Origin: an uncultured Bacteroidales bacterium | Lineage (GTDB): Bacteria; Bacteroidota; Bacteroidia; Bacteroidales; Bacteroidaceae | Direction of reading: 5' to 3' | NCBI GenBank assembly: GCA_902801475.1 | Contig: CADCIO010000001.1 | Location: forward strand, 1-64,000 | Length of the DNA stretch: 64,000 bases | Shown: positions 20,523 to 58,366 of the stretch, in pieces | How the letters are laid out: every line of letters begins with the position of its first letter | Position numbering within the stretch: the stretch's first letter is position 1 | Made by a program: the position numbers and the translations under genes | Notes under the pieces: model-generated | Seen by the model: the letters and a program-made list of their open reading frames with translations, nothing else | Database searches by the model: none | Told to the model about the DNA's origin: nothing

Positions 20523-20532
20523 TAATATATGA

Positions 20533-20628
20533 AACTAAAAACTAAAAGTTAAAAACTAAAAGTGATAGTTACTTGCCGTCCGGATGATGGTAACTTATAC
20601 TTTTAACTTTTAGTTTTTAGTTTTTAAC
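20533..20628. repeat. Inverted pair of 7-base arrays forming a long hairpin between cysE and the methyltransferase gene
   Basis: The left arm is built of AACTAAA, AACTAAA, AGTTAAA, AACTAAA (20533-20560). The right arm is TTTTAAC, TTTTAGT, TTTTAGT, TTTTAAC (20601-20628). The arms are complementary over about 25-30 bases, and the intervening part ends in a GTTAC/GTAAC stem around TTGCCGTCCGGATGATG. It could end cysE transcription. The right arm ends 11 bases before the next start codon. Confidence 0.7.
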
Positions 20629-20639
20629 TTAAAAGAAAT

Positions 20640-22247
20640 ATGACTGAATTTAAGATAATCGCAAAGACCTTCCAAGGATTGGAGGAAGTCCTTGCAAAAG
20701 AACTGATCAATCTGGGCGCCAACAACGTTGAGATTGGTCGGAGAATGGTGGCTTTCACGGGTGACAAGGAGATGCTCTACAAAGCTAACTTCTGTACACG
20801 TACAGCCGTGAAGGTACTGAAACCCATCAAGGAGTTTAAGGCAAAGGATGCCGATGAGGTGTATGAAGCAACCAAGAAGATTGACTGGGAGAAATACATG
20901 GACGTGAAGAGCACGTTCTTGGTGGACTCGGTCATCTTCAGCGAGAATTTCCGACACTCGAAGTTTGTGGCATACCGTGTGAAGGATGCCATTGCCGACT
21001 ACTGGCGTGAGAAGTCTGGGGGTGACCGTCCGAATGTCGTCATCAGCAACCCAGACCTTCGTGTGAATGTACATATAGCAGAGGACGATGTGACTATCTC
21101 CCTTGACTCATCAGGCGAAAGTCTGCATCAGCGTGGTTATAAGACCGCAACCGTACAAGCACCATTGAACGAAGTGCTGGCTGCAGGTCTCATCATGCTG
21201 ACAGGATGGGACGGCGAATGTGACCTGATTGACCCCTTCTGCGGCTCAGGCACCATCCTCATCGAGGCAGCACTCATCGCACAAAACGTCTATCCAGGTG
21301 TGTTCCGCAAGGAATATGCTTTCGAGAAGTGGAAGGACTTCGATGCAGACCTTTTCGACCGCATCTACAACGATGACAGCCAAGAGCGTGATTTCGACCA
21401 TAAGATTTACGGCTACGACATCAACCGCCAAGCCGTACAGATTGCCACAGACAACGTGCTGAATGCTGGTGTGAAGGACATCGTGAGTGTGGAGCAACGT
21501 GACTTCTACGAGTTTGAGAAGCCGCTTGACAAGGCACTCATGATCACGAACCCTCCTTATGGCGATCGCATCACGACAGACGACATCTTCGACCTATACG
21601 AGACCATCGGCAAGAACCTGAAGCGCAATTTCGTGGGCAACGATGCATGGATCATCTCGCATCATGAGGAACTCTTCGACAGGATTGGTTTCCGTCCATC
21701 GACGAAATACGCCTTGTTCAACGGTTCCTTGGAATGCGAGTTCCGCAAGTACCAAATCTTCGACGGCAAACTGAGAGAGCGCCGTGAAGAGGGACTGGAC
21801 ATCAAGACAGATGAAGACCGTCGTCACAACCTCAAGTTCAAGCCTCACAAGAAGAATGAGGACGGCGAATGGTCCAGCCAAGGTGGTGGACGGAAGTTCC
21901 CAACCAATAACGAGGAGCACTATTTTAAGTCAAAGCCTTTCAAGGACAGACCTTCCAAGGACAAGTCTTATGAAGAGGAAGAAGTGAACAGAAAGTGGGG
22001 CAAGGACAGCCGTTGGAAGATGTTTGAGGCTGAAGATGAAGAAGAGGCTGAAATCATCAACCGCCACCTCGGCAAATGGGGTGACCGTACTATACGTCCT
22101 TCTCGTGGCGGAGGAAAAGATTCGTTCGAGGGTCGCAGAGGCGAGAAAGACGATCGACGTCCACGTCAAGATGGTGAGCGACCTGCTCGTAAATTTGACG
22201 GACAGAAAGGTGGAGGTCGTCCGTTTCGAGATAAAAAGGAGAAGTGA
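20640..22247 (+). CDS. THUMP-domain class I SAM-dependent RNA methyltransferase with long basic tail
   Basis: 535 residues. An N-terminal ferredoxin-like/THUMP part (about 1-160; starts MTEFKIIAKTFQGLEEVLAK) is followed by a Rossmann methyltransferase with SAM-binding DPFCGSGTILIEAALIAQN and the amino-methylation motif NPPYGDR near 300. This is the RlmL (23S rRNA m2G) type. From about residue 375 the protein turns into a charged, low-complexity tail rich in Lys, Arg, Gly, Asp and Glu, perhaps for RNA binding. The last 158 bases lie opposite the conserved C-terminus of tatD, and the stop codon lies inside a 7-base-period array. The tail is probably a later extension (inference). Confidence 0.88.
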   Translation: MTEFKIIAKTFQGLEEVLAKELINLGANNVEIGRRMVAFTGDKEMLYKANFCTRTAVKVLKPIKEFKAKDADEVYEATKKIDWEKYMDVKSTFLVDSVIFSENFRHSKFVAYRVKDAIADYWREKSGGDRPNVVISNPDLRVNVHIAEDDVTISLDSSGESLHQRGYKTATVQAPLNEVLAAGLIMLTGWDGECDLIDPFCGSGTILIEAALIAQNVYPGVFRKEYAFEKWKDFDADLFDRIYNDDSQERDFDHKIYGYDINRQAVQIATDNVLNAGVKDIVSVEQRDFYEFEKPLDKALMITNPPYGDRITTDDIFDLYETIGKNLKRNFVGNDAWIISHHEELFDRIGFRPSTKYALFNGSLECEFRKYQIFDGKLRERREEGLDIKTDEDRRHNLKFKPHKKNEDGEWSSQGGGRKFPTNNEEHYFKSKPFKDRPSKDKSYEEEEVNRKWGKDSRWKMFEAEDEEEAEIINRHLGKWGDRTIRPSRGGGKDSFEGRRGEKDDRRPRQDGERPARKFDGQKGGGRPFRDKKEK

Positions 22248-22791
22248 GAGGTGAGAGGTAAGAGGTAAGAGGTGAGAGGTATTCAGAAAAGACCTTCCTC
22301 AGCGTTTCCACATTGTACTGATGACCAAAGGAGAGCAACATCCCTTTGGTCATCAATTGTTTTGCCTGTTCGGGCTTGCCACGAAACCCATGAATGACCC
22401 AAGGTTGCGGTACCCTACCCTCCTGCTTACAAGAGGCTTCCAATTCACGACGCAGCATCAGCAATTCATCAAATGCCCTCACACAATGGATGACCATCGG
22501 TTTCTGAACCTCCTCCGCAATGGCGATATGGGCACGAAAAGCGTCCATCTGCATAGCTAAAGGGGCACCATGTACCTTATCCAAGCCACACTCACCAATC
22601 GCCCACACATCCCTTCTGCTTGCCTCCTTACGAATCGAAGCAACCACTTCCTGCCAATCCTCACCCACCTTCCACGGATGCAATCCTATCGAAAGTCTCA
22701 CGTGCTCAGGATAGGAAGGTTGAAGGTCGGCTGTGTCCACATTCAGCAGACAAGGCTCTTCATCTATATAATATGTATGGAAATTAAACAT
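22090..22791 (-). CDS. TatD-family metal-dependent hydrolase, overlapping the methyltransferase gene
   Basis: 233 residues. TatD features: GLHPW, WAIGECGLDKV with the metal-bridging Glu, MVIHCVRAFDELL, WVIHGFRG, and the C-terminal FYLETDD with the catalytic Asp followed by the usual helical end (SVRQIYEQVAHHLDVDVDRL). At the N-terminus FHTYYI replaces the usual HxH, so one metal ligand may be missing. Residues just before FYLETDD read YLSPLTS twice, the translation of a 7-base-period array (22244-22280). The conserved C-terminal part is antisense to the methyltransferase tail. It is last in the metK-DUF4271-hemD-rnpA-yidD series. Confidence 0.85.
   Translation of the reverse strand: MFNFHTYYIDEEPCLLNVDTADLQPSYPEHVRLSIGLHPWKVGEDWQEVVASIRKEASRRDVWAIGECGLDKVHGAPLAMQMDAFRAHIAIAEEVQKPMVIHCVRAFDELLMLRRELEASCKQEGRVPQPWVIHGFRGKPEQAKQLMTKGMLLSFGHQYNVETLRKVFSEYLSPLTSYLSPLTSPFYLETDDLHLSVRQIYEQVAHHLDVDVDRLSRLCDPRTNLFLRHEKDV
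22244..22280. repeat. 7-base-period array inside tatD and over the methyltransferase stop codon
   Basis: Words GTGAGAG, GTGAGAG, GTAAGAG, GTAAGAG, GTGAGAG in strict 7-base steps. The first word contains the methyltransferase TGA (22245-22247). On the other strand the array is translated within TatD as the 7-residue unit YLSPLTS, since three words equal seven codons. Confidence 0.8.
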
Positions 22792-22800
22792 GATTGAAAG

Positions 22801-22828
22801 GTTATGGGTTATAGGTTATGGGTTATTG
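22801..22828. repeat. 7-base-period array between tatD and yidD
   Basis: Words GTTATGG, GTTATAG, GTTATGG, GTTATTG, just upstream of the tatD start (minus strand). The same words recur at 23100-23120 and, inverted, at 25124-25151. Confidence 0.8.
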
Positions 22829-25113: not shown

Positions 25114-25123
25114 ATTCTCTCTA

Positions 25124-25172
25124 TAACCTATAACCAATAACCCATAACCTCTAAACGCTAAACGCTAAACGA
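25124..25172. repeat. 7-base-period array of seven words at the metK end
   Basis: TAACCTA, TAACCAA, TAACCCA, TAACCTC, TAAACGC, TAAACGC, TAAACGA in unbroken 7-base steps. The metK TAG (25151-25153, minus strand) and its last six codons (RLAFSV) are made of the TAAACGC words. The TAACC words are the inverse of the GTTATGG arrays at 22801 and 23100. Confidence 0.85.
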
Positions 25173-43422: not shown

Positions 43423-43478
43423 GAACATATGTTCGTGAGCCGATGAACATATGTTCGTAAGCCAATGAACATATGTTG
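43401..43478. promoter_or_regulatory. Four palindromes spaced exactly 22 bases at the start of giant gene B
   Basis: GAACATAGGTTC (43401), GAACATATGTTC (43423), GAACATATGTTC (43445) and GAACATATGTTG (43467) start every 22 bases; the spacers also resemble each other (GTxxGYCxAT). The chosen start codon lies between the first and second copies. Two-turn spacing of palindromes suggests a multi-site operator or a looped leader RNA. Confidence 0.7.
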
Positions 43479-43541
43479 CCTGTATGCTTGCTGTATTCTT
43501 TGTCATATTCTAATTGTAACGAAATCGTTATATTTAATGTT

Positions 43542-44016: not shown

Positions 44017-44082
44017 AGTAAATTCAGTTGATTTACTCAGTAAATTCACTGAATTTGGTCAGTAATTTCACTGAATTTACTA
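44017..44082. promoter_or_regulatory. Three 22-base imperfect palindromes upstream of the HU-like gene
   Basis: Three tandem units start at 44017, 44039 and 44061, each of the form AGTAAATTCAnTGAATTTAC plus two bases. The centre TTCACTGAA is exact in units 2 and 3. The whole is a perfect 22-base step array between giant gene A and the HU start codon. The word differs from the 43401 array, but the period is the same. Confidence 0.7.
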
Positions 44083-44131: not shown

Positions 44132-44370
44132 TTATTTCACTGTTACTTTCTTGTTATATTTGCCACCAGCAGCACGGAGGATATACACACCAGTTGATGG
44201 AACTGGAGTCTCGATGGTCTCACCAGGATTGATGGTGAAGGAGCCGATGGTCTGACCGCTGGTGTTGACAATGAGCACGTCGGTCGCATTGCGGAGCGAG
44301 GACTCAGCACCAATGACCACACCCTTCACATAGAATATCAATTCGCCACCAACTTCACCTTGTCTTGGAT
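44132..44370 (-). other. T9SS type A sorting domain of giant protein A
   Basis: The C-terminus shows the type A pattern: a strand VLIVNTSGQTIGSF, a Gly/Pro turn, the conserved 'TGVYILRA' strand, then Gly and the terminal KKVTVK. This domain directs passage through the outer membrane and surface attachment. Confidence 0.82.
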
Positions 44371-47300
44371 CATTCTCCTCAAATCCGAAGCTGTTCTCAT
44401 CCTGAGCGAAGATAATCCGTCGAACGGCATTGCGTTTCTTGGCATTACCTCCACCTGAAGTTGCAGTCTCGAAGAACGGTCGGAATGGCAAAACAACAAT
44501 ATCGCCTTCACCTTCGTCAACATAGGCATCACCTGCGGTATTGAGGTAGTAGTTACTTGGCAAAGTCGATGTGCCCGTTACAGACTCCAACGTTTCTTTC
44601 AGGTAATTGGGCTTGAAGGCGAAATCACCCTTCGTTACACCTGCCATCTCATCATCGCTCACACGAATAGTCACATTCGGTGCTGAAGCGAAGGTGATGA
44701 TCTGCTCATCCAGTTTGTCGATAGCAGCATAGGTGTGTTCAGGCTCAAACTCTCCGCTGAGGTCAAACTCATAGTAGCGACTGCCTGGGAATCCTATGAT
44801 ATAAGGAGTTCCTGCCATCATATAAGGATAATCATTATAAGTACGTGTCGTTTTGTAATATTCCTGATAGAAGTCTGTATTCGCATCTCGCCGCAGTTGG
44901 TTGCTGTAATAGTAATCCCATAGGAAGGTGTTCGCGTCTGACTTCATCTCCGAACCAGCCTCAAGTTTGTTGAAGTTAGCTACAAAGACTTTCTTATCAT
45001 CAGGATCAGGAGAACCACCTGCATACTCACGCAGCCAGTACTCATGTCCTGTGGTACTACCTTCGTAGAAGTGAGTGATCTCACCCTTCTGCTGGGTAGA
45101 GACAAGTTCGGCTGTGAATGGCAAACTAACAGCCTCCCAACCCTTAGTGGTACGCGTTGTGCCACTCCAATCTATATCAACATGGTTGTCAGGCTGGCGT
45201 TGGTACCACATACGCTTGCCGCCCGTGAAGTCATATTGGATAGGACAATAGAATTCTTCCTTATCCACCAGCAGATGGTCATTCGTGGCTATCTGACCAC
45301 TCTCCACAAGGTGACCCTTCACGCTCGAAGCGAGGGCTTTTTCCACACGATGATAATTGGATGTATCGTAGTAATCATCGAATACCGGTTCGATGAAGTT
45401 TGTACTCAATACACCATAAGTAGCCTTGTTGTCATCAGCTGACGGAGCATAGACGAGCAGATTCTGCGTCTCGTCATTGATCGTAATATCGGTCAAACCG
45501 TCATCGTCGAGCAACGGTGGATAGAACTTGCCCGATGATTGCATGCCCAGAGCATAGCTGCTGACTCCGTTCAAAGCATCGTTATAACCTGCGAAGTCAA
45601 TGGCGGTCATATTAGGATAAGCCATCTTCCAGTTGGTATCCGTCACCGTCTTTGGCTTCGAATGGGCAACAATGAAGGCATTGCTGTTGAAGTGAGCCAC
45701 GCTCATCTCGCTGTTGCGGAAGTAAGCAGGTGCACGATAAACACGATTAGCGCCTGTGATGTGTCCAGGTTCATCCTGATGAACATCACCCCAACCATAA
45801 TTCAGATTCTGTCCGAAGTAGAGATAATCGTCTGGCCAGATAGGAGCAAATGCGGTCGTCACTGAAGTCTCTGATGCTATGGTTCGCATACGAGTCTCCA
45901 CGGTCTCAGGGATAGAGCCATCAGCATAACGGAAGTCACCATCGGAATAGCGATCTTCAACATAACTATAGTTGCCGTAGTGATCTTTTCTCTTCTTATC
46001 GTCCAGCGGATAGAAAGCATAAGAGTCTGGATAGTACCCTGTAATCAGGTTCTCCGACAGCGTTCCGTCAACCTCCGTCAGATACTTGTACTCTGTACCA
46101 CTGGTCTGCTTCTTGTCGTAGTAACGCTTGTTCAGATAGAAGCCGTTCAGGTTATAGGCTACCGTACCGTTGTAGAACTCCTGATCAGTCATCGGAGTGG
46201 CAATGCCTCGACCATTATTGGTAGTGTTGTATTCCTTGCCTTTCTGATAGTAGCTGTTGACTAACTGTATGCCACTGCTACGCGATGGGTTACCGAAGAC
46301 AGCGCGAACGTTAACGTCAGGCGTACCCGTGGTGTTAATCCAGCAGTTCTCCACATAGCCATCGCCGGTATCAGCAACACCTGCAGAGGTGAATGAACCT
46401 GTGACACCAAGGTTATAGACGCTACCGCAGAGGGTGCCGAACAGAGAGTTGTTCAAGCCTGTGACAGTATAGCCATCACCATGGAAGTTACCTTCGAAGC
46501 ACTGATTAGCATCACCGACAGGTGTCCAGCTTGTGTATTTCTTCGGACTGACATTGCTGTTGAGGATGAACTCCAGGTCGGCACCGCCCTTGACGTGATC
46601 ATCAAGTGAAGCATGACCGTCAAGTCCGCTCACACTGAGGTCGAAGAAGTCCTTCAACAGGTCGAGCTCGCTCTTCGTCTCATCACTCTCGCAGTCGCGG
46701 TTGTCGATATAAATCTTCGAGTTGCGCATCACGCCTGGATGGTCCACATAAAGGTGGTGCTCCTTATCCTTCATGATGGCATCAAGGTCGTGGTAGTTAG
46801 CCACAGACAGCGGCACATAGTTCGAGTAGGTCTTACCCAGATAAGTCTTCGAGTAGAACGCCAGCCATACCTTCTGGTTCTGATACCAGTAGAGTGGAGT
46901 ACCATTGTTGATGAACGGTGTACCATTTCGGTGCAGCTGGGCATCATCTTCATCTTTGAAGAGTTCCCAACCGCTGGTCAGAATCTCATAGAGTCCAGGA
47001 TTGACGGATGGTGCCTTCAGACCAACGGTGTTACCTGGCAGTACTGCAGGCGGTGCATTCAGCGGACCGATCTCCGGAGCGCCACTCTCCAGCTGCAGGT
47101 GAATATTCAGCACGTGCAACTCATTGACCAGACTGACACCCTCACCCTCGTCGTCGGGTTCATAGTAGGTGTACTGATAGACAACGCTAATCACCTTCTC
47201 GGAAGTCACATCCTTGGCATTCGACTCACGAGAGACATACAGTGTGGTTGTCTCCGTAGGCTCTGAACCCTGGATAGAGAAATACTTCTGGTAGTTGGGG

Positions 47301-50300
47301 ACATCATTAAATACCGAATTAGAGATGACTGAACCCTTCTGAACAGCAGTACCGCTTTCGGTTGTATAATCCTCGTAACAATAGTATTTCACCGACGCTG
47401 ATGCTTCCCTCGAAATTTTCACCACATCGACCTTGGCCTTGTTGGCATCTGAGAGGGCGTTATAGTCCTTCTCGCTGATGTCCTGACCCTGTGCATAAGG
47501 CGTACCATTAGCAATCATGGTCTCTTTGACAATATAGAAGGTCTGGGTGTCATTACCTGCATCGACAGAGAGGCGGGTATAGTGCAACTGGTCGTTACGT
47601 ACCTTCTCATAAGCCTCGCGGGAGATAGATCCACCTGTCGAGATGGTGAGCGGCGAAGTGTTATCGTTATCGTAATAGGTCAGCGTATTTGCTCCATTGT
47701 AGACAGCCTCATATTCTACCGGCTTCACTTCATCATAAGGATGGGCGTATACATTTGTATGCCCCTCTCCTGGATATGCCGGATCAACCAACACGTCGAA
47801 AGCATCGTAATTGAAATCGAACTTGTTACGGTCATCGGTCAGTGAGCACCATGACTTGATGGCACCATAATTCTTACCTGACTGGAAGTATTGTCCGCCG
47901 TAAAGGCCAGGCTCCTTGATGTAGTAAGCAGGCGACAAATGATCTTTAATGTATTCGAGAGCCTGATCTTCATCTATAGGGTCGGCATTAATCTTTCCGT
48001 TATTATATTCCATGTATTTATCTGCCAAGGCATCAAGGTTGGCAACAGTACCAGAAACCAGTTCACCCATCAGCACATACTCTTCGTCACCCAACTGGAT
48101 GGAATTGACGCAGATCCAAGCTGATTGGAAGTTGGATTTGTCAGACAATGCATTGTAAGCGGTCTCACCGATAGCACTTCCTGCCTGGATATTGCCAGAG
48201 TTGGCCAATGCCACGTAGGCAGGTTCGGCATCAGCTTGGTCATCAAATGACATATCCCCAACCGTGGTTTTATAGTCGTCATAAACCTCTTTGGTGATAA
48301 TCTCGCCAACCTCGTACCTGCGCTGACCATAAAGACCTGATTCACCCGTCAGTCTGTAAGTCGGACCTAAGATGTAGTTCGCCTGGGTGGTGGCTGGCAG
48401 TTTATAGGTTTCCTTTGATATCTTGCCACCATTAGATTGGAGGATAGGACTGTACCAATCATCCCAATCCTTCGGGCTGTTCATGTCGAGCGTGAGTACA
48501 TAACCAGTATCGTGGGAGATATTGTTTGATGGATGGAACAGAGTTGTAAGATCTGTCACATCAACGCCTGTAGAGGTCTTCACTACATGACTAGCCGTCT
48601 GGAAGGTCTTCCATGCCGTCTGGGAAGCATCGCCATCATGTACGGAGGCGTCGTTCTCCAACACATACTCGCCAGCCTCATAGGACGTGCCGTCAATCAC
48701 ACATGGATCCACATTGACATAGGTCTCCTTAACGAAATACTTCTTTTCATTATCTGGCAGCTGGTTCCAGTCCCACCATGTAATGACATCATTCAGCTGG
48801 AAGGTTGTACGCTCGTTATCCACTGCCACACCGTTGCTCGAAATCTTACTGCTTTCGCTACGATTTTCATCAGCATAGTAAGCATAGAGGTTCGGTTGTA
48901 CGTTCAACAACTTCAGACGACCATTCGAACCAGCCGTAATGGTGAGCGGTATCTTCACTTCCTTCGAGTAGGCTGAAGCCGAACCAGCGTAAGCGGATAC
49001 CACCTGGTCGTAGATATACACTTCACCCTTGATGAACCAATAGTGAGCTGGCGACGTCACATAGAGACCCTTACTATCCCGATAGACACCATTCGTCGGA
49101 TAGCAGTCATCAACAATGCGCTTCGACTTATGAATAAAGTTACCAGAGGTCTGCCAGTCTTTTAGGTATTCCGTATTTGTACTATAAGTAAAAATCTTTT
49201 TGGTTAGCGCCTCGTTGCCCTGTATTTTATTATAAGGAGACAAAAGGACGTTCGTGAAATTATTATTTTTCGTTTGTACTCCGTGTTCATTGCGGGCATA
49301 GACATAGCCACCACCTTCGATATCCTTCTTCACATTGATTAGGTCGAGTTCGACCACACCCGTGATATCACCATATATCTTGTTAGATGGCGTACTGTTC
49401 TCTGTGGTCAGCTCCAAGAACACACCCGAAGCCAGAGCCACCTGGTTATAAGAAGTTCCATTGTTGCGGTCACGCTTGTCCAGATGGTCAATTTTATACT
49501 CGTAATACTTCTGTGTGTCAACTTTGGGCTCTTCTCCCTCCACATACCTACGTGGGTCGTCAAAGTGTACATCACTGGTCAGGTTGCCCATGTAGTTCAC
49601 CACGCTGTAGATGCCGAAGTAGTTGCCATGAATCTCATCGTCACTATTTGGAGTGAAACGCTGTTGGTTCAGCGACACCTCGCCCACACGGTTGATGGTG
49701 TATTCCGTGGCATCAGCCACATCAGCGACACGGTCCTTGGCACCTTGCAGCACCAAACGGCTACCAAACACTCCACAGAAGTCGGCACGCTGGATGGTGT
49801 TCAACAAACGTCCTGCATAGATGGAGCAGAAACCGTATTGCTTCCAATAAGTATCATTTCTATAGTCACTCGGCAATTTGTTGTATTCATCCTCCTCGAT
49901 TTTATCCCCTGCCGTATGACCATTGTTATCCGTCTGACATACATACTGCAACTTGAAGTAGGCACGTTCACGATTGCTCAACGTCTGGTATTCTTCCAAA
50001 GGAATCTGCTGATTCAAACCATAGTAGTCAGTTCCGTAGTTGGTGATATTCAACTCACGATAACCACCCACCAACGACAAGTTACCACCACCATAGAGTC
50101 CACCAGTATGCTCCGTACCAACAGTAATGAAGTCGTGGTGATAGACATCATAAAGCGTAGCAGTGGTATTACCGAATACCGTTGTGGCATTGCTATAGCT
50201 CTCACTGTTCGACGACACGTTACCTCCGGCAAACACAGCATTGTGGATTTGTACGCCACGCTCTATCTGGTCGTCATCCGTTTTACTGCCCGTATAAAGG

Positions 50301-53300
50301 TTCGTCCAACCAGCATTTGTCTTGTCAGCAGGCAGGGTGTTCAGATAATCGGTAGGCACATAATCGTATGGATGATAAGTTTTCTGGTCATCCCCTGTCG
50401 CTGGATAGGTTACGTCCGTACCGTTTTTCCTAATCTGCAACATCGGAGCGATTACCACTTTGCAGTCTTCTGTCAATTTTTGATCGGCATCATAATAATA
50501 ATAGTGGTTCGGCGAACCGGTACCTTGATCATGAGAGCCAGTAAAATATGATCCGCTATAAACATAACCTACATCGCCACCGCCAAAGACATTACCATAA
50601 CCCTCTGCCAGTCCCTCATCAGTACCAATCTCACCACCATGGATATAGACCTCAGTCCCTCCGAAGACATAGCCATCGGTATAGAAGCCGCGTGTACCAC
50701 CATATCCAAGGATGTTATAGCCCTTACCACCACCAAAAATGTTGCGTTTCACATGACCGTTGTACATCTTGATATGGGTCTTACCAGGATGATAGATAGC
50801 CTTGATCACGCGTTCCTTGTTATCAACACCGCCCTCTTCCGTCGCACCTCGACCAATCGTAGCAATCTCACCACCACCAAAGATACTGTTACGGACGATG
50901 CCACCCCACATCGTGACATGACTCTCGTCAACACTACTGTTATCATCGTAACCACCACCAAAGAGATTTCCACAGTCGGACAAGCGGTCTAATCCCACAT
51001 GGTCTGTCCATGTCTCGTCGTTGACCTTCTCTTCATATTCGCTGGTTTCTGTGTTATAGACGTAGCCAATATAACCATTGTTCAACGTCAAGTTTGAGTG
51101 ACCTATAATTGAACCACCCTCACCACCACCGTAGGCATTACGCTGAAGGGCTGGTACTCCATTGTAGAAACCGTAATCATCAGGAACACTTGTCTGATCT
51201 GGACGGATACCTATGACGACATGCGTCTCACCTGGGATATCTTCCGTTGTTGGGTCACTAATTCCACCTTTATGATAACCCACATTACCTTTCCATCCAC
51301 CACCATAAACGTTACGCGCACTACCACCGGCAATGAAAGCATTGGCACTGGCAGTGAAATTTTCTGCTCCAAAGATATTATAAACAGCACCAGAAGTACC
51401 TGCAGCATAGAGGTCCTTATTCACGATGCCGCCAAGAAGTGCAATATAAGTGGTGCCATAAACATCACCGCTACCAACAAAGATATCATTCTCATTGCCA
51501 AGTCCACCACCATAAGCGTAGTTTCCTACGTATGCACCCTTGTTGATAATGACGTTCGTGTTGTATTTATAGGTCTTTGTTTCCCTGTCGTCCATCTCTG
51601 CAACCCTTGCCAATGGATTAGCAAGGTTGGTATAGGTATTGGTAACATAACCGTTTTTCAATGCATCTAATGGAGTCTTGTTCTCCATCACAGGGTCATA
51701 ACCTCCACCTAAAGACCAAGCGTTTAACCAATCTGCATCAGTGAAAGGAACATCAGGATCAGTATCTTTCTTCTTTGGCCAATAGGTAGGCTTAAAACCT
51801 TTAATATATGCCTGAACACTCTCAGTGCTCATCACACCACCGGCCTCACCACCGCCATAGACCTCCCATACGTTAGCACCATCTTTCAAATTGACCTCCG
51901 TGTATTCATTCCACGTTTGAGAACCACAACCTGCACCATAAATGGTGGCTGTAGTCATACCATATTGATGATTTTTCTGTCTGACAGGGGCTTCGATATT
52001 GATTTTACCATAGAGGGTACGACGGGCATAATTGTTACCACCGTAGATGGCTCCCTTCGTCAATTCTGTTGCAGGATTAGAGATCAGGTAAGCATCCTCA
52101 CTCTGTGTCAGATAGTTCACATTGGCCTCATATACATCACAAGGCTTATAGGCATCACTACCGTATGCCCCACCAAAGATACTACCAATCTGGATGGTGG
52201 AACCTTCTGGTACATTAACAATGGTGCGGCGAGTGACACCCTCGTTGCAACTAGCACCATAGGCTGCACCAATCTGTCCGCGTACAAGATCAATGACGGT
52301 GGAGGCAGTGACCCCATCGGCATTGGCAGCCGCTATTTCGGGATTGAGTGCGGGCATGACTTCAACCTCTTCATTGTTGACCGTTCTGGTCGTTGCCACC
52401 TCATTACGCATACCCAATCCGCAGTAGTCGCCAGCGCCAAACACCTCCATATTCTGATACGTTGTGATGTTTTGCGGTATGTCTATCAAGACATAACTCC
52501 TATCCTGCATCATGTCACGATCGGAGTCACCAGTATAACCTTGTCCACCACCATAAATCCTATTCACCGCATTACGGGTATGACTGATGGGCCTAAAGTT
52601 GATAAAAGCATTGATCATGCGAGGCTTAGTGAAGCCTGCTTTGGCAAGACCGATATTGCTATCTGTTGTTTCTGTGTCTCCTGTCGTATAAGTATAATTC
52701 TTAAAATGCGGGTCTTTATAATCATACACACCATAACAACCTCCATAGATGTTCTCCACACGCCCCTGCAGGAATTCCATATAGGCAGAAGCATTGGTGA
52801 CATCAGGATTAGGATTGGAATCGTTCTCTCCGACCTGCTTATTCTTTGGATTATAAACCTTACCCAGAACATCATTAGAGCTGACGCGATCCTTGAAATT
52901 GGTCAGTCCAAAGATGTGCCCACCAAGGTCATTGCCACCATAGACGTGGTCACGAATCCAGGGGAAGCCACCTCCATCCGTATAAGTTCCATCGTTGTTT
53001 GCCTGACGTCCAATATACGTTTCGGTATGTCCCAAAATGTCGGCATTACAGCTACCTGCAAAGGAGTTGAAGATACGACCGTTACCCAGATTGATATGGG
53101 TACTGCCCGCAATCAGTCCTTCAAAGCTTCCACCATAAATAAATTCAGCCTCTGCCATATCTTGGTCATCTGTATGGCCTCGATAAACACCTTCATTGCT
53201 ACCTCTCAGGTTGATATAGGTGCTATAAGCCTCATTGGGTTCGTATGTCAGATCATGTATATTGGGATTTGTAGCGTTTTCTTGGTGACTGACAGCCCTA

Positions 53301-55876
53301 CCAATCGCTCCCTGCTCACCGCCACCGAATATCTGGAAAGTGTAACCAGCATTGAGGTTGATGGTCGCGCTACCCCAAATCTCAGAGTCACCACCATAGC
53401 CGCCACCGAATACATTCAATGCGCGACCCAACACATCCATACCCTGCTCACCAAGAAGAACACCTGTGTAACGCTTTTTGATATTGTAGTTTCCATCATA
53501 CAACTTGGCTTCACCCTCCGTCTCCTCTATCTCGTCGAAGATGGCATTCTCACCCTTGCGGTCCACAAGCGACGCATTCAGGTTGATGACCACATTACCG
53601 TTCACGTGACCATTACTATAACAACCGCCATAGATGTTTCCACCATGGAAGCGACGATGAAGGTCGGTGTTTGCATCATAAGGCTTGACCGTGGTTGGGG
53701 CAACAGAGGCCATCGGTGTGTATGTCTTGGTGGTTGTATCGAAAGTTCTACCGTCAACAGTGTTCCACTCCAATATGCGGTTGCCATTGTCATCCAATTC
53801 ATATTGCTCATTACCATTCGCATCTAAGATTGGAGCATAACTAGCATCTCTTGTGATTTTCCAACGTTTGGGCTGAATCTTCAGACCACCGAAATTAAGC
53901 ACCAACTTGTTACCTGTACCCTCTTCGGGGTCTCCCAACAATCCACCCAAATATTGAGTGTTATAATCAGACTGATAAACATTAGCCTCATTACTGCCAC
54001 CCACGACTTTGTTGTAGATGACCACCTTGTCATTGAAACTCACATTAAAGGCACCATTTCGCTTCATACTACCCACGTTACCGCCGCAATAGAAAGAACC
54101 GAAATAGGTAGAATAAGGTACATAATCGGGGTCGAAAGTAACATCTGGATCAATCATCATGGCACATCCGTCCATATACTTGTCAAACTGTTCATGATTT
54201 GTCAAGTCCATGGAGTTAAACTTATTAGTAGATCCGCTCACGGTACTTCGTAACGTGCGCAGAACACCTTCCGGTATTCCATTCGCTTCATCCTTTTCAT
54301 TGGTCTTCACCATATTGGCTCCATTATTGCCCAAAAACACATTGTCGGCAATGACATACGAACCAATCTTCAGCTGGGATGTGGCACGTTTGTTTGGATC
54401 ATCGTTTCGCAATGTGGCACTATTACCACCACAATAGATAGCACCACCGATGACCGTCTTTTTACTTTCAGTTCCTACAACATGAATGGATACTGCTTCG
54501 GCATTAGGACGGAATGCATTCAACGCATCTACAGAGGAACTTGAACCAGGATCATAGTAAAAGTCTTTATACTCATCGAGTTCTTTTAAATCAATATTAT
54601 CCGTATAGGCATAGGAACCATTTCCCCCACCATACACATCACCTTTGATACTGCTACGAATACCGATAGCATTGCCCCCATAAACATTACCAGAAATATC
54701 GTTACCCCCATATACATTATTAATATCACCAGCTAAAACCAACACACGAGCCGCATAGTTTGCAGGGAAAGAATAGGATGTACCGCCAACCGTTATGTTT
54801 TCGGCTAATAACGTATTCCTATTGGGATTAACATCAGCCATACGACAACCTCCATACACATTATCAATATGCATGTTATTACTATTAATGGCCAACAAGA
54901 TACCACCTTTGCCATTATCATAATAAGTCATATTACCAGCATTGCCACCGGAATAGAGGTCACGAATCCATCCCCGCTTAAGATGCCACGTGGGTCGAAT
55001 GGCCATCTCTGCCACATTATTACCGCCAAAGACACGAGAGAACTGGAATGACGAACTGTTGGCATGTAACTGCGTCGTGTTGAGACCCATTAACTTCAAG
55101 CGGGTTCCTGCTTCATCGTTCAATATATCCGTTCCATTTGCATCAGTGATACTCGTCGTCACACTACTCTCGTTGTCAATACAAATGTCTGTAGCACCTG
55201 TCACCGTCGCGCAATTACCACCACCAAAGAGATATGCTATAGTACCGCCTCTAATTTCAAGATAGGTCTTGCCCAGTTCAGGCTTTTCAACATCCTCAAT
55301 CGTTACATTGTTGAGCGTGACATCATATTTGTCATTATCTTTCTTTGCTGAGTACTCATAATTGCCATTTCCGCCACCATAAAGCTGACCGATGAACATG
55401 TGGTGCTGTGTTTCGCCCGTATCAGCCTCTTTTTCTTTGGTGGTGAGAACAAAGGCTCCATACTGCTTTGTATTCTCCCCTTCTGTTTCTGTGATTTGAT
55501 TGGTGACTGCATGCTTAAGTTCTTCTGGTATGGCATCTGTAGTTTGGACAGATTGTCCTACTTTTCCCGCAATATCATTGCCACCATAAACCACATTGAT
55601 AATGATGTCGTTGCTCATGTGCTCGCCGTCGATATTGACGAAAGTACTGCCACCCACGTTGGCCATACGGGCACCGCCAAAGACAGCGTTGATGTCACCG
55701 GCACATACGGTCACATTTGTATTGCCCGTCATATCACCAGCATTGCCGCCACCATATACATTGCCACCAATGGTAATTTGCGCTACGCAAAATGACAAAT
55801 GACAAATGACAAATGATAAAGTTATCATCCATCGCCTTGAGCATTTACAATTATGTATGTAGCGCATTATATTCAT
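44132..55876 (-). CDS. Giant glycine-rich repeat surface protein A (3,914 residues) with T9SS sorting domain
   Basis: The signal peptide has a basic n-region (CKCSRRWM) and a core LSFVICHLSFCVAQ encoded by a 7-base-period array; ATG 55874-55876 gives the fuller n-region, and 55828 is the alternative. From the mature N-terminus to about 50050 there are about 40 copies of [VI][YF]GGGxxGxV, for example NVYGGGNAGDMTGNTNVTV. Next is a region of about 10 'GxxISxxxYNxLsdxxK' units (50010-47215), a GLUG-like patch (YTVTGLNNSLFGTLCGSVYN) and a long unique part. The last about 80 residues are a type IX sorting domain (DVLIVNTSGQTIGSF, GVYILRAAGGKYNKKVTVK). Probably exported by T9SS and attached to the cell surface. 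It begins 26 bases after the fimbrillin gene. Confidence 0.9.
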   Translation of the reverse strand: MNIMRYIHNCKCSRRWMITLSFVICHLSFCVAQITIGGNVYGGGNAGDMTGNTNVTVCAGDINAVFGGARMANVGGSTFVNIDGEHMSNDIIINVVYGGNDIAGKVGQSVQTTDAIPEELKHAVTNQITETEGENTKQYGAFVLTTKEKEADTGETQHHMFIGQLYGGGNGNYEYSAKKDNDKYDVTLNNVTIEDVEKPELGKTYLEIRGGTIAYLFGGGNCATVTGATDICIDNESSVTTSITDANGTDILNDEAGTRLKLMGLNTTQLHANSSSFQFSRVFGGNNVAEMAIRPTWHLKRGWIRDLYSGGNAGNMTYYDNGKGGILLAINSNNMHIDNVYGGCRMADVNPNRNTLLAENITVGGTSYSFPANYAARVLVLAGDINNVYGGNDISGNVYGGNAIGIRSSIKGDVYGGGNGSYAYTDNIDLKELDEYKDFYYDPGSSSSVDALNAFRPNAEAVSIHVVGTESKKTVIGGAIYCGGNSATLRNDDPNKRATSQLKIGSYVIADNVFLGNNGANMVKTNEKDEANGIPEGVLRTLRSTVSGSTNKFNSMDLTNHEQFDKYMDGCAMMIDPDVTFDPDYVPYSTYFGSFYCGGNVGSMKRNGAFNVSFNDKVVIYNKVVGGSNEANVYQSDYNTQYLGGLLGDPEEGTGNKLVLNFGGLKIQPKRWKITRDASYAPILDANGNEQYELDDNGNRILEWNTVDGRTFDTTTKTYTPMASVAPTTVKPYDANTDLHRRFHGGNIYGGCYSNGHVNGNVVINLNASLVDRKGENAIFDEIEETEGEAKLYDGNYNIKKRYTGVLLGEQGMDVLGRALNVFGGGYGGDSEIWGSATINLNAGYTFQIFGGGEQGAIGRAVSHQENATNPNIHDLTYEPNEAYSTYINLRGSNEGVYRGHTDDQDMAEAEFIYGGSFEGLIAGSTHINLGNGRIFNSFAGSCNADILGHTETYIGRQANNDGTYTDGGGFPWIRDHVYGGNDLGGHIFGLTNFKDRVSSNDVLGKVYNPKNKQVGENDSNPNPDVTNASAYMEFLQGRVENIYGGCYGVYDYKDPHFKNYTYTTGDTETTDSNIGLAKAGFTKPRMINAFINFRPISHTRNAVNRIYGGGQGYTGDSDRDMMQDRSYVLIDIPQNITTYQNMEVFGAGDYCGLGMRNEVATTRTVNNEEVEVMPALNPEIAAANADGVTASTVIDLVRGQIGAAYGASCNEGVTRRTIVNVPEGSTIQIGSIFGGAYGSDAYKPCDVYEANVNYLTQSEDAYLISNPATELTKGAIYGGNNYARRTLYGKINIEAPVRQKNHQYGMTTATIYGAGCGSQTWNEYTEVNLKDGANVWEVYGGGEAGGVMSTESVQAYIKGFKPTYWPKKKDTDPDVPFTDADWLNAWSLGGGYDPVMENKTPLDALKNGYVTNTYTNLANPLARVAEMDDRETKTYKYNTNVIINKGAYVGNYAYGGGLGNENDIFVGSGDVYGTTYIALLGGIVNKDLYAAGTSGAVYNIFGAENFTASANAFIAGGSARNVYGGGWKGNVGYHKGGISDPTTEDIPGETHVVIGIRPDQTSVPDDYGFYNGVPALQRNAYGGGEGGSIIGHSNLTLNNGYIGYVYNTETSEYEEKVNDETWTDHVGLDRLSDCGNLFGGGYDDNSSVDESHVTMWGGIVRNSIFGGGEIATIGRGATEEGGVDNKERVIKAIYHPGKTHIKMYNGHVKRNIFGGGKGYNILGYGGTRGFYTDGYVFGGTEVYIHGGEIGTDEGLAEGYGNVFGGGDVGYVYSGSYFTGSHDQGTGSPNHYYYYDADQKLTEDCKVVIAPMLQIRKNGTDVTYPATGDDQKTYHPYDYVPTDYLNTLPADKTNAGWTNLYTGSKTDDDQIERGVQIHNAVFAGGNVSSNSESYSNATTVFGNTTATLYDVYHHDFITVGTEHTGGLYGGGNLSLVGGYRELNITNYGTDYYGLNQQIPLEEYQTLSNRERAYFKLQYVCQTDNNGHTAGDKIEEDEYNKLPSDYRNDTYWKQYGFCSIYAGRLLNTIQRADFCGVFGSRLVLQGAKDRVADVADATEYTINRVGEVSLNQQRFTPNSDDEIHGNYFGIYSVVNYMGNLTSDVHFDDPRRYVEGEEPKVDTQKYYEYKIDHLDKRDRNNGTSYNQVALASGVFLELTTENSTPSNKIYGDITGVVELDLINVKKDIEGGGYVYARNEHGVQTKNNNFTNVLLSPYNKIQGNEALTKKIFTYSTNTEYLKDWQTSGNFIHKSKRIVDDCYPTNGVYRDSKGLYVTSPAHYWFIKGEVYIYDQVVSAYAGSASAYSKEVKIPLTITAGSNGRLKLLNVQPNLYAYYADENRSESSKISSNGVAVDNERTTFQLNDVITWWDWNQLPDNEKKYFVKETYVNVDPCVIDGTSYEAGEYVLENDASVHDGDASQTAWKTFQTASHVVKTSTGVDVTDLTTLFHPSNNISHDTGYVLTLDMNSPKDWDDWYSPILQSNGGKISKETYKLPATTQANYILGPTYRLTGESGLYGQRRYEVGEIITKEVYDDYKTTVGDMSFDDQADAEPAYVALANSGNIQAGSAIGETAYNALSDKSNFQSAWICVNSIQLGDEEYVLMGELVSGTVANLDALADKYMEYNNGKINADPIDEDQALEYIKDHLSPAYYIKEPGLYGGQYFQSGKNYGAIKSWCSLTDDRNKFDFNYDAFDVLVDPAYPGEGHTNVYAHPYDEVKPVEYEAVYNGANTLTYYDNDNTSPLTISTGGSISREAYEKVRNDQLHYTRLSVDAGNDTQTFYIVKETMIANGTPYAQGQDISEKDYNALSDANKAKVDVVKISREASASVKYYCYEDYTTESGTAVQKGSVISNSVFNDVPNYQKYFSIQGSEPTETTTLYVSRESNAKDVTSEKVISVVYQYTYYEPDDEGEGVSLVNELHVLNIHLQLESGAPEIGPLNAPPAVLPGNTVGLKAPSVNPGLYEILTSGWELFKDEDDAQLHRNGTPFINNGTPLYWYQNQKVWLAFYSKTYLGKTYSNYVPLSVANYHDLDAIMKDKEHHLYVDHPGVMRNSKIYIDNRDCESDETKSELDLLKDFFDLSVSGLDGHASLDDHVKGGADLEFILNSNVSPKKYTSWTPVGDANQCFEGNFHGDGYTVTGLNNSLFGTLCGSVYNLGVTGSFTSAGVADTGDGYVENCWINTTGTPDVNVRAVFGNPSRSSGIQLVNSYYQKGKEYNTTNNGRGIATPMTDQEFYNGTVAYNLNGFYLNKRYYDKKQTSGTEYKYLTEVDGTLSENLITGYYPDSYAFYPLDDKKRKDHYGNYSYVEDRYSDGDFRYADGSIPETVETRMRTIASETSVTTAFAPIWPDDYLYFGQNLNYGWGDVHQDEPGHITGANRVYRAPAYFRNSEMSVAHFNSNAFIVAHSKPKTVTDTNWKMAYPNMTAIDFAGYNDALNGVSSYALGMQSSGKFYPPLLDDDGLTDITINDETQNLLVYAPSADDNKATYGVLSTNFIEPVFDDYYDTSNYHRVEKALASSVKGHLVESGQIATNDHLLVDKEEFYCPIQYDFTGGKRMWYQRQPDNHVDIDWSGTTRTTKGWEAVSLPFTAELVSTQQKGEITHFYEGSTTGHEYWLREYAGGSPDPDDKKVFVANFNKLEAGSEMKSDANTFLWDYYYSNQLRRDANTDFYQEYYKTTRTYNDYPYMMAGTPYIIGFPGSRYYEFDLSGEFEPEHTYAAIDKLDEQIITFASAPNVTIRVSDDEMAGVTKGDFAFKPNYLKETLESVTGTSTLPSNYYLNTAGDAYVDEGEGDIVVLPFRPFFETATSGGGNAKKRNAVRRIIFAQDENSFGFEENDPRQGEVGGELIFYVKGVVIGAESSLRNATDVLIVNTSGQTIGSFTINPGETIETPVPSTGVYILRAAGGKYNKKVTVK
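47215..50010 (-). repeat. Second repeat class inside giant protein A ('ISxxxYNxLsdxxK' units)
   Basis: Diverged units of about 45-90 residues share 'Y..G..I(S/T)...Y..L......K..Y', for example IPLEEYQTLSNRERAYF, EDEYNKLPSDYRNDTYW, ISREAYEKVRNDQLHY and ISEKDYNALSDANKAKV. About ten can be picked out by eye. They separate the GGG solenoid from the C-terminal part. Confidence 0.55.
55792..55819. repeat. 7-base-period array encoding the signal-peptide core of giant protein A
   Basis: Words ATGACAA, ATGACAA, ATGACAA, ATGATAA in strict 7-base steps. Read on the minus strand they give LSFVICHLSF, the hydrophobic core of the signal peptide. Confidence 0.85.
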
Positions 55877-57090: not shown

Positions 57091-57123
57091 TCTCTAAACG
57101 CTAATCTCTAAACTTTCAACTCA
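57091..57123. repeat. 7-base-period array between two fimbrial genes
   Basis: Words TCTCTAA, ACGCTAA, TCTCTAA, ACTTTCA fill the 30-base gap from the fimbrillin start codon to the stop of the next gene upstream. The CTAAACG and CTTTCAAC words recall those at 25152 and 58332. Confidence 0.65.
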
Positions 57124-58323
57124 CCAATTATACACCGATTTGTCGTCATTGATATTATCCGACGTCCAACTCTTCACACCCATATCCGTCACCGTCAACA
57201 CATGTATCTTCGCATCCATATAGAACACATAGATAATCCACGAACGGTTGCGATAAAAATCACCTGGAGCTGCAATCGAGAACGTGGTATGATCCACTTG
57301 TGTCTCATCTGTATTTCCCTTCTGTTGAACCGAATATTGAATCGTTCCCGTCAACTGCTTGTCACTTTCACGCAAGTAAGTCAAACCAAGTTGCTTTAAA
57401 GGTTGATCACTTTCAGCTGCCTTATAGGTGCCTGCAATCGCCCCATTAATCATATTCTCATAGTCTTGTGCCGCCTGAGTTTCGTAGGCATACTTCATCG
57501 GATCCTCGACGGTAGGGATGGTATTACCTACTACACTGCCATAATTGATGGGGCTCGAAACGTACCCTATGGTAGTATAAGACGGATTAGCTACAGGCAT
57601 CAAATAACTCTCTGTTGGTATCATTTCCCCATTCAACTGAATCTCGTCTATCGACACCAACTCCTTGGAATCTCCGTCTGCAATGCGGCAAAGCACAAAG
57701 CGCAACTTTGATACCGCACGAGTCAACTGCACAGTGGTCATCTTATCTTGACTACCGATGCGCAAGGCAGGGAACGAACCATAAATGGGCTGATCCTTCT
57801 TCACACCTGACATAGGAAGACCTTCAGCGCCCTCTTGATCAGGAACCGATGATACGAGGGAAGAAACACCAAACTTTCCTTCTCCAATCATCGCTGCATC
57901 CAAGTCATCGCGTTTAGTATCCCTTCCAAGTGTCAACCCCACACTCTCCGCGTTTGCCACCACATATACATCCACATTCTCTGGATGATCTGCAAATTCT
58001 TTCTCCACTTTCATCTGGAACAGTTCCTGCCCATCTGTCTCATTCAGGAAGGTAGGAGTTGCATCCAGATGACCCACCAGGCTTCCATCACTATGCTTGA
58101 ACACCCATATCTGAAGAGTATGAACTGTAGATTCTGCAATCTCCCTATGCGCAATCTCGCCCACATCGGCTCGGGTCAGCATCGGACGACCTGGGGCATA
58201 GACATAGATGTTCAGGAAGCAGTCACCATTCTCATCACTGCCTTCTCCTGAATGATCGCTGCATGCCGTCAACAGCACGATAACCAGCAACATCCACATT
58301 TCTATGTCTCTTTTCCTTTTCAT
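57121..58323 (-). CDS. Fimbrial-type lipoprotein (FimA/Mfa N-terminal-like)
   Basis: 400 residues. A lipobox (LLTAC-SDH) follows a short basic and hydrophobic leader. The start of the mature part, CFLNIYVYAPGRPMLTRADV, then STVHTLQIWVFKHSDGSLVG and NVDVYVVANAESVGL, match the N-terminal fold of type V pilus subunits (strands with a 'vfd..g.lv' pattern and 'yvvANa'). The Arg before ADV is a likely gingipain-type maturation site by analogy with FimA. C-terminal strand HVLTVTDMGVKSWTSDN. Probably an accessory subunit. Confidence 0.72.
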   Translation of the reverse strand: MKRKRDIEMWMLLVIVLLTACSDHSGEGSDENGDCFLNIYVYAPGRPMLTRADVGEIAHREIAESTVHTLQIWVFKHSDGSLVGHLDATPTFLNETDGQELFQMKVEKEFADHPENVDVYVVANAESVGLTLGRDTKRDDLDAAMIGEGKFGVSSLVSSVPDQEGAEGLPMSGVKKDQPIYGSFPALRIGSQDKMTTVQLTRAVSKLRFVLCRIADGDSKELVSIDEIQLNGEMIPTESYLMPVANPSYTTIGYVSSPINYGSVVGNTIPTVEDPMKYAYETQAAQDYENMINGAIAGTYKAAESDQPLKQLGLTYLRESDKQLTGTIQYSVQQKGNTDETQVDHTTFSIAAPGDFYRNRSWIIYVFYMDAKIHVLTVTDMGVKSWTSDNINDDKSVYNW

Positions 58324-58331
58324 TCTTTCTT

Positions 58332-58366
58332 AACTGTCAATTTTCAACTCTCAACTTTCAACTCAA
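58332..58366. repeat. 7-base-period array between fimbrial genes
   Basis: Words AACTGTC, AATTTTC, AACTCTC, AACTTTC, AACTCAA in strict steps, filling the gap between the stop of one fimbrial gene and the start of the next. The inverse of the same words (AATTGAAAGTTGA) is at 94-106. Confidence 0.8.

Follow-up and report, generated by a model that had tools for sequence, protein, structure and literature searches.

A dispersed heptamer-repeat element as the probable source of the signal-peptide core and cleavage region of a giant Bacteroidales protein

The 5' end of one very long gene in the window (the whole stretch of DNA analysed, 64,000 nucleotides) contains a tandem array of 7-base words that is read as protein. 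Its position raises a question: does this repeat act as the core of an export signal, and where would such a signal have come from? An earlier note on this DNA had proposed that the array, translated on the minus strand as LSFVICHLSF, forms the signal of a 3,914-residue protein. The features that bear on the question are these:

44132..55876, minus strand: gene for a giant protein of 3,914 residues with YGGGN-type repeats (open frame; same-genus orthologues of similar length)
44135..44302, minus strand: C-terminal T9SS type A sorting domain (TIGR04183, E = 1.2e-5, 25.2 bits, cut-off 23)
55781..55876, minus strand: predicted signal peptide (SP) of 32 residues, MNIMRYIHNCKCSRRWMITLSFVICHLSFCVA, with two further in-frame ATGs (55867, 55828) as alternative starts
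55832..55844, minus strand: two ATGs (55844 and 55832) that precede the array in a different frame and no longer share the register of the giant open reading frame (ORF)
55790..55820, minus strand: array of about 4.4 heptamers (coding-strand word ATTTGTC), read as the hydrophobic core LSFVICHLSF (TRF and translation)
55781..55825, minus strand: copy of a dispersed element, comprising ATAACTTTATC, the heptamers and the cap CATTTTGCGTAGCG (near-identity to unlinked copies)
55781..55789, minus strand: end of the cap, TGC GTA GCG (C-V-A), a putative signal peptidase I site; cleavage predicted between 55781 and 55780 from the A/Q-I position in orthologues (the slash marks cleavage)

The array and the signal peptide of the giant protein

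On the minus strand, TRF reported a repeat of period 7 from 55820 to 55790 (4.4 copies, 95% matches), and LSFVICHLSF is indeed read in the frame of the ORF at 44132–55876. When the window was dinucleotide-shuffled 100 times, the exact core (55790–55816) was matched in none of the shuffles, even with three mismatches allowed. The sequence ATTTGTCATTTGTCATTTG has a single exact occurrence in its own genome and is a member of a larger dispersed family whose words vary. An inverted repeat that flanks the array, TGCGCTAC...GTAGCGCA, was not seen next to the other copies inspected and is probably a chance feature; a scan for promoter and terminator consensus sequences was uninformative.

Proteins with a T9SS sorting domain need a Sec signal, and the giant protein, with such a domain at its C-terminus, therefore needs one too. 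The features in the window and the position of the SP in orthologues would fit this expectation. The N-terminus of the protein reads MNIMRYIHNCKCSRRWMITLSFVICHLSFCVA/QITIGGNVYGGGN, with a long and unusual n-region (MNIMRYIHNCKCSRRWM). At least 12 orthologues have an ordinary SP that ends at the same A/Q-I site, and the SPs of the orthologues lack the array. Alignment with these orthologues begins at the same Q-I-x-IGG residues, and the next in-frame Met lies within the conserved mature part; a true start 3' of the array, which the earlier note had named as a refutation, is therefore very improbable. The reading frame and the position of the orthologous SPs bear out the assignment of the array as the putative SP core, and we infer that the giant protein is exported and cleaved.

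The dispersed element and its recurrence

The array is one copy of an element that is dispersed throughout the genus and consists of heptamers and the cap TCATTTAGCGNAGCG. Exact copies of this cap number 100, spread over 10 of the 45 genus genomes, and the reversed control gave none. The capped element spans about 45 bp; over 45 bp, the window copy is 95.6% identical to one upstream of prfC in another genome (G040), and it is 93–98% identical to copies in G036, G027 and contig C2 of its own genome, a near-identity to unlinked copies between genes. The single always-open frame of the element ends in LSFS[VAEG]A, i.e., a hydrophobic core and an SPase I-like site. From these similarities, we conclude that a copy of the dispersed element very probably now forms both the hydrophobic core and the cleavage region of the SP of this T9SS-exported protein.

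The earlier note had suggested a search for SFVICHL-type repeats that coincide with signal peptides, and had allowed that such peptides might be absent elsewhere. The search was positive: heptamer-array cores of predicted SPs recur in other proteins of the genus. Capped elements, in frame, also form the predicted SPs of a TolC-like, a BatE-like and a DUF3108 protein, whereas a GDSL gene has a capped element out of frame; other heptamer words build further SPs, including in orthologues. The idea that the element SPs of BatE arose once was rejected: their tree requires three changes, of which two or more are forced, and they form no single clade. A selection test on decayed element-derived SPs of BatE had too few substitutions to draw on. 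An Elusimicrobia FecR-domain protein has a heptamer-array SP that is apparently an independent case. When GTDB genomes were scanned for ATTTGTC, the matches listed were mostly cyanobacterial loci, with at least one clear further SP case and at least one counter-case.

Period-7 arrays occurred at 37.0 per 100 kb in intergenic DNA, 35.5 in SP-coding DNA and 2.7 in gene bodies (2.05 Mb of genus sequence). They were present in 9 of 483 SPs and 0 of 544 transmembrane (TM) segments (p = 0.001), where the ORF and SP callers were homemade and the counts take in the same gene family from more than one genome. The control families, too few to establish that the arrays are specific to the genus, gave 0 of 101 SPs with arrays (p = 0.37). 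Averaged over all SPs, autocorrelation at lag 7 was slightly higher than at adjacent lags; so weak a mean signal indicates an effect confined to a minority of SPs, and by the count above heptamer arrays do concern a minority.

Routes into signal peptides

Three 7-base words equal seven codons, as had been proposed, and the same heptapeptide cycle results from every frame. The extension of this rule to any T-rich array was too broad: among 2,340 heptamer rotation classes, 70–100% of those with at least four T are open and hydrophobic, but the overall figure is 12%, and a pure GTTTTTA array runs into TAG. For ATTTGTC, the antisense strand contains TGA, so that only one orientation of the array is open.

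A T-rich heptamer array has one stop-free orientation and, as 7 mod 3 = 1, gives an identical hydrophobic heptapeptide cycle whichever frame it is read in; in the open frame, the cap encodes S-x-A (C-V-A in the window), an SPase I-type site. These properties together are why the element could serve as an SP. Beyond hydrophobicity, sufficient length and a terminal small-x-small motif, little is demanded of an SP, and selection would for that reason tolerate elements in SPs about as freely as between genes. We infer that copies enter SPs from intergenic DNA, and non-coding repeats appear, from these comparisons of sequence, to serve as ready-made export signals in the genus. The idea that arrays make export signals from non-coding DNA is upheld by their recurrence in SPs, but needs amending as to the source, which would be a specific dispersed element that supplies the cleavage site too.

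A bolder account of the route, less likely than not, is that mobile heptamer-armed elements supply ready-made export signals in the genus, and that their arrival at the 5' end of a gene would renew or create an SP. The purine-rich arm would yield a lysine-rich n-region, the pyrimidine-rich arm the hydrophobic core and the cap the cleavage site. A DUF3108 protein of G027, whose start (MKVKSEKRKVKNLFYLPFGWGLLLFFTFHFSLYS) lies entirely inside one palindromic element, would be a whole-element example.

Alternatively, the array could be a contingency locus, in which gain or loss of 7-bp units changes the reading frame and so turns the giant protein on or off, as CTCTT does in Neisseria opa leaders. 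Seven is not a multiple of three, and with second-frame ATGs upstream the phase of the array would decide which start is in register; in a GDSL-enzyme gene of G011, moreover, the start codon and the conserved frame lie in different registers on either side of an array, while its relatives are intact. That case could be an assembly error or a recent mutation, however. The window array runs to only about four units and varies at its ends, and recurrent arrays in SPs are for the most part short and imperfect, a form that would damp slippage; the array-free SPs of the giant-gene orthologues also speak against a switch. On genomes sampled at one per species, we consider it doubtful.

A comparably doubtful route is the copying of SP modules among unrelated exported genes, with intergenic copies as by-products. 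A near-identical module of 27–31 bp encodes LLVFSFSFL in SPs of five families (BatE, DUF3108, DUF2490, M16-like and TPR-like proteins), and each of the four exact matches to it within the genus, among the genomes sampled, is an SP. Yet this module, too, has intergenic relatives, and among capped-element copies in the sampled stretches the intergenic ones far exceed those in SPs (22 vs. 1, with 3 at gene ends).

Arrays might also grow in situ, by slippage in T-rich SP DNA and without transfer from intergenic elements. Arrays of CACTTTT and TTCAATT within SPs vary between orthologues while the n-regions are otherwise family-typical, as local growth would have it; it cannot yield a common non-repeat cap or near-identity over 45 bp to unlinked copies, and TM segments are as T-rich as SPs yet lack period-7 arrays. 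Local slippage is an unlikely explanation in general, and unlikely as the source at the window locus. Finally, that a 5' leader repeat was misread as protein by extending the ORF upstream of its real start is highly improbable here, even though heptamer arrays are common immediately upstream of starts in the genus and one locus (L143) is such a case, its array lying upstream of a complete lipoprotein signal and hence dispensable: a downstream start would cost this T9SS cargo its sole SP and part of its conserved N-terminus, and elsewhere the mature part follows directly, with orthologous SPs at the same place.

Related systems and significance

The closest precedents are the opa leader repeats and the Rickettsia palindromic elements (RPE). 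The CTCTT repeat of opa encodes the hydrophobic core of the leader. These repeats lie in the coding sequence of the Neisseria opa leader (PMC3745409) and, like the window array, are short, T-rich and tandem, with a unit that is not a multiple of 3. They differ in belonging to one gene family, with a 5-bp unit and demonstrated phase variation, whereas the present family has 7-bp units, several words, unrelated gene families, a common non-repeat cap and dispersed intergenic copies; neither the CTCTT word nor opa homology was found at the locus, as the word differs and the giant protein had no match in a Pfam search. RPE are small dispersed elements in frame within protein-coding genes (PMC10969869), as is the capped element; they are longer, at about 150 bp, and occur within unrelated metabolic genes, whereas the in-frame copies of the capped element, at about 45 bp, seem to concentrate in SPs and would supply a defined function. 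TAACTGA-type direct repeats of Beggiatoaceae, Cyanobacteria and some Bacteroidetes are likewise 7-bp repeats in intergenic DNA, often near start codons (PMC4679880). Neither TAACTGA nor its complement is the word here, which is ATTTGTC and its relatives; translated, TAACTGA contains a stop and so cannot run forward through a gene, whereas the T-rich words of the genus are open. Compared with T9SS cargo proteins (TIGR04183), the giant protein shares the type A sorting domain at the C-terminus and, as homology predicts, a signal at the N-terminus, and differs in that the core and cleavage region of its putative SP are made of a repeat element. In the part of the literature that was searched, no paper described heptamer arrays as a source from which SPs repeatedly arise.

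Signal peptides evolve fast, and their origin is rarely traceable. In the present case the DNA they came from can still be recognised, in several genes and species. Why it works is simple: through the length of the repeat and the arithmetic of codons, an array of T-rich heptamers is hydrophobic in all frames. Should export be confirmed, non-coding repeats would give new protein-targeting signals a direct, testable origin, and secretion could be switched as the number of units changes.

A heptamer array within the probable signal peptide of the giant protein

The earlier note described a minus-strand array of 7-base words, translated as LSFVICHLSF, and proposed it as the export-signal core of a 3,914-residue protein. 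The observation of an in-frame array is confirmed, and the translation is borne out. Tandem Repeats Finder (TRF) reports 4.4 copies of period 7 at 55790-55820; the exact 27-bp core of the array found no match in 100 shuffles with up to 3 mismatches allowed.

Features of the giant gene in the window
55825 to 55781, coding (minus) strand: capped-element copy (a T-rich heptamer run plus cap), ATAACTTTATCATTTGTCATTTGTCATTTGTCATTTTGCGTAGCG
44132-55876, minus strand: ORF of the giant gene (3,914 aa), array in frame
44017-44081: three 22-bp repeats, AGTAAATTCACTGAATTTACTC, directly 3' of the giant gene's stop codon

The arithmetic by which three words equal seven codons is correct; because 7 mod 3 = 1, every frame of a heptamer array encodes the same heptapeptide cycle. 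Among 2,340 rotation classes of heptamers, 12% overall are open as well as hydrophobic (mean Kyte-Doolittle of 1 or more); the share rises with T content, from 70% at 4 T to 89% at 5 and 100% at 6. The proposal that such arrays yield hydrophobic repeats stands for T-rich words but not for words in general.

The status of the signal peptide (SP) was judged from orthologues, for which 61 relatives were searched; the same-genus orthologues found have open frames mostly of 3,600–4,300 aa. The N-terminus of the giant ORF reads MNIMRYIHNCKCSRRWMITLSFVICHLSFCVA followed by QITIGGNVYGGGN, and its C-terminus is a type IX secretion system (T9SS) type A sorting domain (TIGR04183, 25.2 bits; cut-off 23). 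T9SS cargo crosses the inner membrane via Sec, so an SP is required. At least 12 orthologues carry an ordinary SP whose end falls at the same residue (e.g., MRKITTILLLLCLSARLMQA followed by QIVIGGHVYGGGN). If translation began downstream of the array, the protein would have no SP. Together, these points argue that the array forms the h-region. The nine bases after it, TGC GTA GCG, encode C-V-A, the putative cleavage site. With the corrections given here, the interpretation of the array as export-signal DNA is supported.

Two ATGs in the window, 55844 and 55832, are in a second frame, not that of the giant ORF, so the number of units sets which start is in register. An Opa-like on/off switch of the gene by unit number is thus possible, although the array is short. 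The closest precedents for SPs built from heptamer arrays are the CTCTT repeats in the leaders of Neisseria opa genes (PMC3745409), TAACTGA heptamer repeats (PMC4679880) and Rickettsia palindromic elements inside genes (PMC10969869); a literature search of partial coverage found no description of heptamer arrays as a recurrent SP source. At 57121-58323 (minus), two genes upstream of the giant one, there is a weak partial match to FimD (fimbrial tip adhesin, NF052322; 49 bits vs. a cut-off of 170).

A dispersed capped element

The flank of the window array, TGTCATTTNGCGTAGCG, was found again across the genus with one mismatch allowed, and exact matches to ATCATTTAGCGNAGCG number 100, spread over 10 of the 45 genus genomes (reversed control, 0). 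The element consists of a T-N-TCATT heptamer run and then a cap, TCATTTAGCG[TCAG]AGCG. The window array is not an isolated repeat. Its copy is 95.6% identical over 45 bp to one upstream of prfC in genome G040, and 93–98% over 40–45 bp to copies in G036, in G027 and on contig C2 of the source genome. One cap frame always contains TAG, and a second does so with the T variant; the only frame that is always open ends in LSFS[V/A/E/G]A, which resembles an SPase I site. At L190:1501-1517 of G040, an antisense element supplies the C-terminus (...ELRYAK) and stop codon of a gene.

Of 393 genomes sampled from the order, 9 had exact ATTTGTC arrays; among the matches listed, such arrays were widespread in cyanobacteria. 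The listed loci held one further clear SP, in an Elusimicrobia FecR-domain protein (MKDEKLKIKIVATWFVICHLSFVISAANA followed by AESPL), and a counter-case, L143, in which the array lies ahead of a complete lipoprotein signal.

Recurrence of putative heptamer-derived signal peptides

Further cases, which the earlier note had suggested seeking at N-termini, were sought as an ATG shortly before a capped element, and three in-frame examples were found.

Putative signal peptides with the element in frame (slash, putative cleavage site)
G040: TolC-like protein (PF02321), MKKFCISLSFIIFHFSFSAA/QTYTL
G036: BatE-like TPR/SH3 protein, MRKILTLTFIIYHLSFSVAFA/FTKAE
G000: DUF3108 protein, MRLLLLLFLIFHFSFSAALHA/QCPTE

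In a GDSL-enzyme gene of G011 (L166 / L279, contig C63), the start codon and the conserved frame do not share a register across the element's heptamer array; relatives have intact copies. Among orthologues of these four proteins the mature parts align and the SPs differ, several consisting of different heptamer words (GDSL SPs, TTCAATT; DUF3108 and BatE SPs, CACTTTT and GTTTTT[AC]). Element-derived, partly decayed BatE SPs are recognizable in six species forming three close pairs, and the tree needs three changes of state; they are thus older than at least some speciations. SPs of BatE, DUF3108, DUF2490, one M16-peptidase-like and one TPR-like protein share a near-identical 27–31 bp module (typically CTTTTAGTTTTTAGTTTTTCGTTTTTA) that reads LLVFSFSFL. 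One unit in these copies has TCG at its end, at the place where TAG would appear in a pure GTTTTTA array; intergenic copies are few. Heptamer-array SPs recur in the genus. The window's other giant ORF (5,352 aa) begins, at 43401-43506 (minus), in a 22-bp tandem repeat with palindrome GAACATATGTTC; the repeat encodes the stretch that leads up to and enters the n-region of a likely SP, MDKRTYVLRMMMVVLMMMGVGGVWG/QTNYSG.

A survey of 2.05 Mb from seven genus genomes used a simple homemade ORF and SP caller and included some gene families present in more than one genome; near-perfect period-7 windows occurred in 9 of 483 SPs. The comparison sets gave none among 544 internal transmembrane segments (p = 0.001), 4 among 3,375 random coding windows (p = 3e-6) and 1 among 718 other N-termini (p = 0.002). 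Lags 4, 5, 8, 10 and 11 combined gave one window in SPs. Exact period-7 arrays per 100 kb numbered 37.0 in intergenic DNA, 35.5 in SPs, 20.0 at gene 3' ends and 2.7 in gene bodies; 11 were observed in SPs vs. 0.85 expected at the gene-body rate. AAAAGTG/CACTTTT was the commonest word in SPs and also in intergenic DNA, where 7 is the preferred tandem unit (37 per 100 kb vs. 5.5–7.6 for units of 8–11). Control families gave 0 of 101 SPs (p = 0.37), too few families to show genus specificity. Further 7-bp arrays of various words lie at or near gene boundaries of the window (22239-22281, 22799-22826, 25121-25171, 58328-58364).

Palindromic elements with heptamer arms

Among 492 period-7 arrays in the genus sequence analysed, 36 are followed by a complementary partner no more than 160 bp downstream (reversed control, 1). 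One of these, window 20532-20618, belongs to an intergenic inverted repeat at 20532-20630, in which the heptamer arms AAAAACT / AGTTTTT enclose the core GTTAC...GTAAC and which folds far better than its shuffles (z = -6.2). The set also includes a dispersed hairpin family in G036, with AAAAGTG arms flanking ATTTGCTACCGCA...TGCGGTAGCAAAT (z = -12.0 for one copy).

Copies of the G036 hairpin family
L322:1847-1927
L323:11870-11947
L326:4462-4542
L329:1453-1535 and 9569-9650

The start of a DUF3108 protein in G027 lies entirely inside a palindromic element with period-7 arms, the purine arm encoding MKVKSEKRKVK and the pyrimidine arm LLLFFTFHFSLYS; weaker relatives of this element occur elsewhere in the genus. 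The palindromic elements and this DUF3108 start are the basis for a tentative reading, to which we give rather less than even chances: that mobile heptamer-armed elements may be a source of ready-made export signals.
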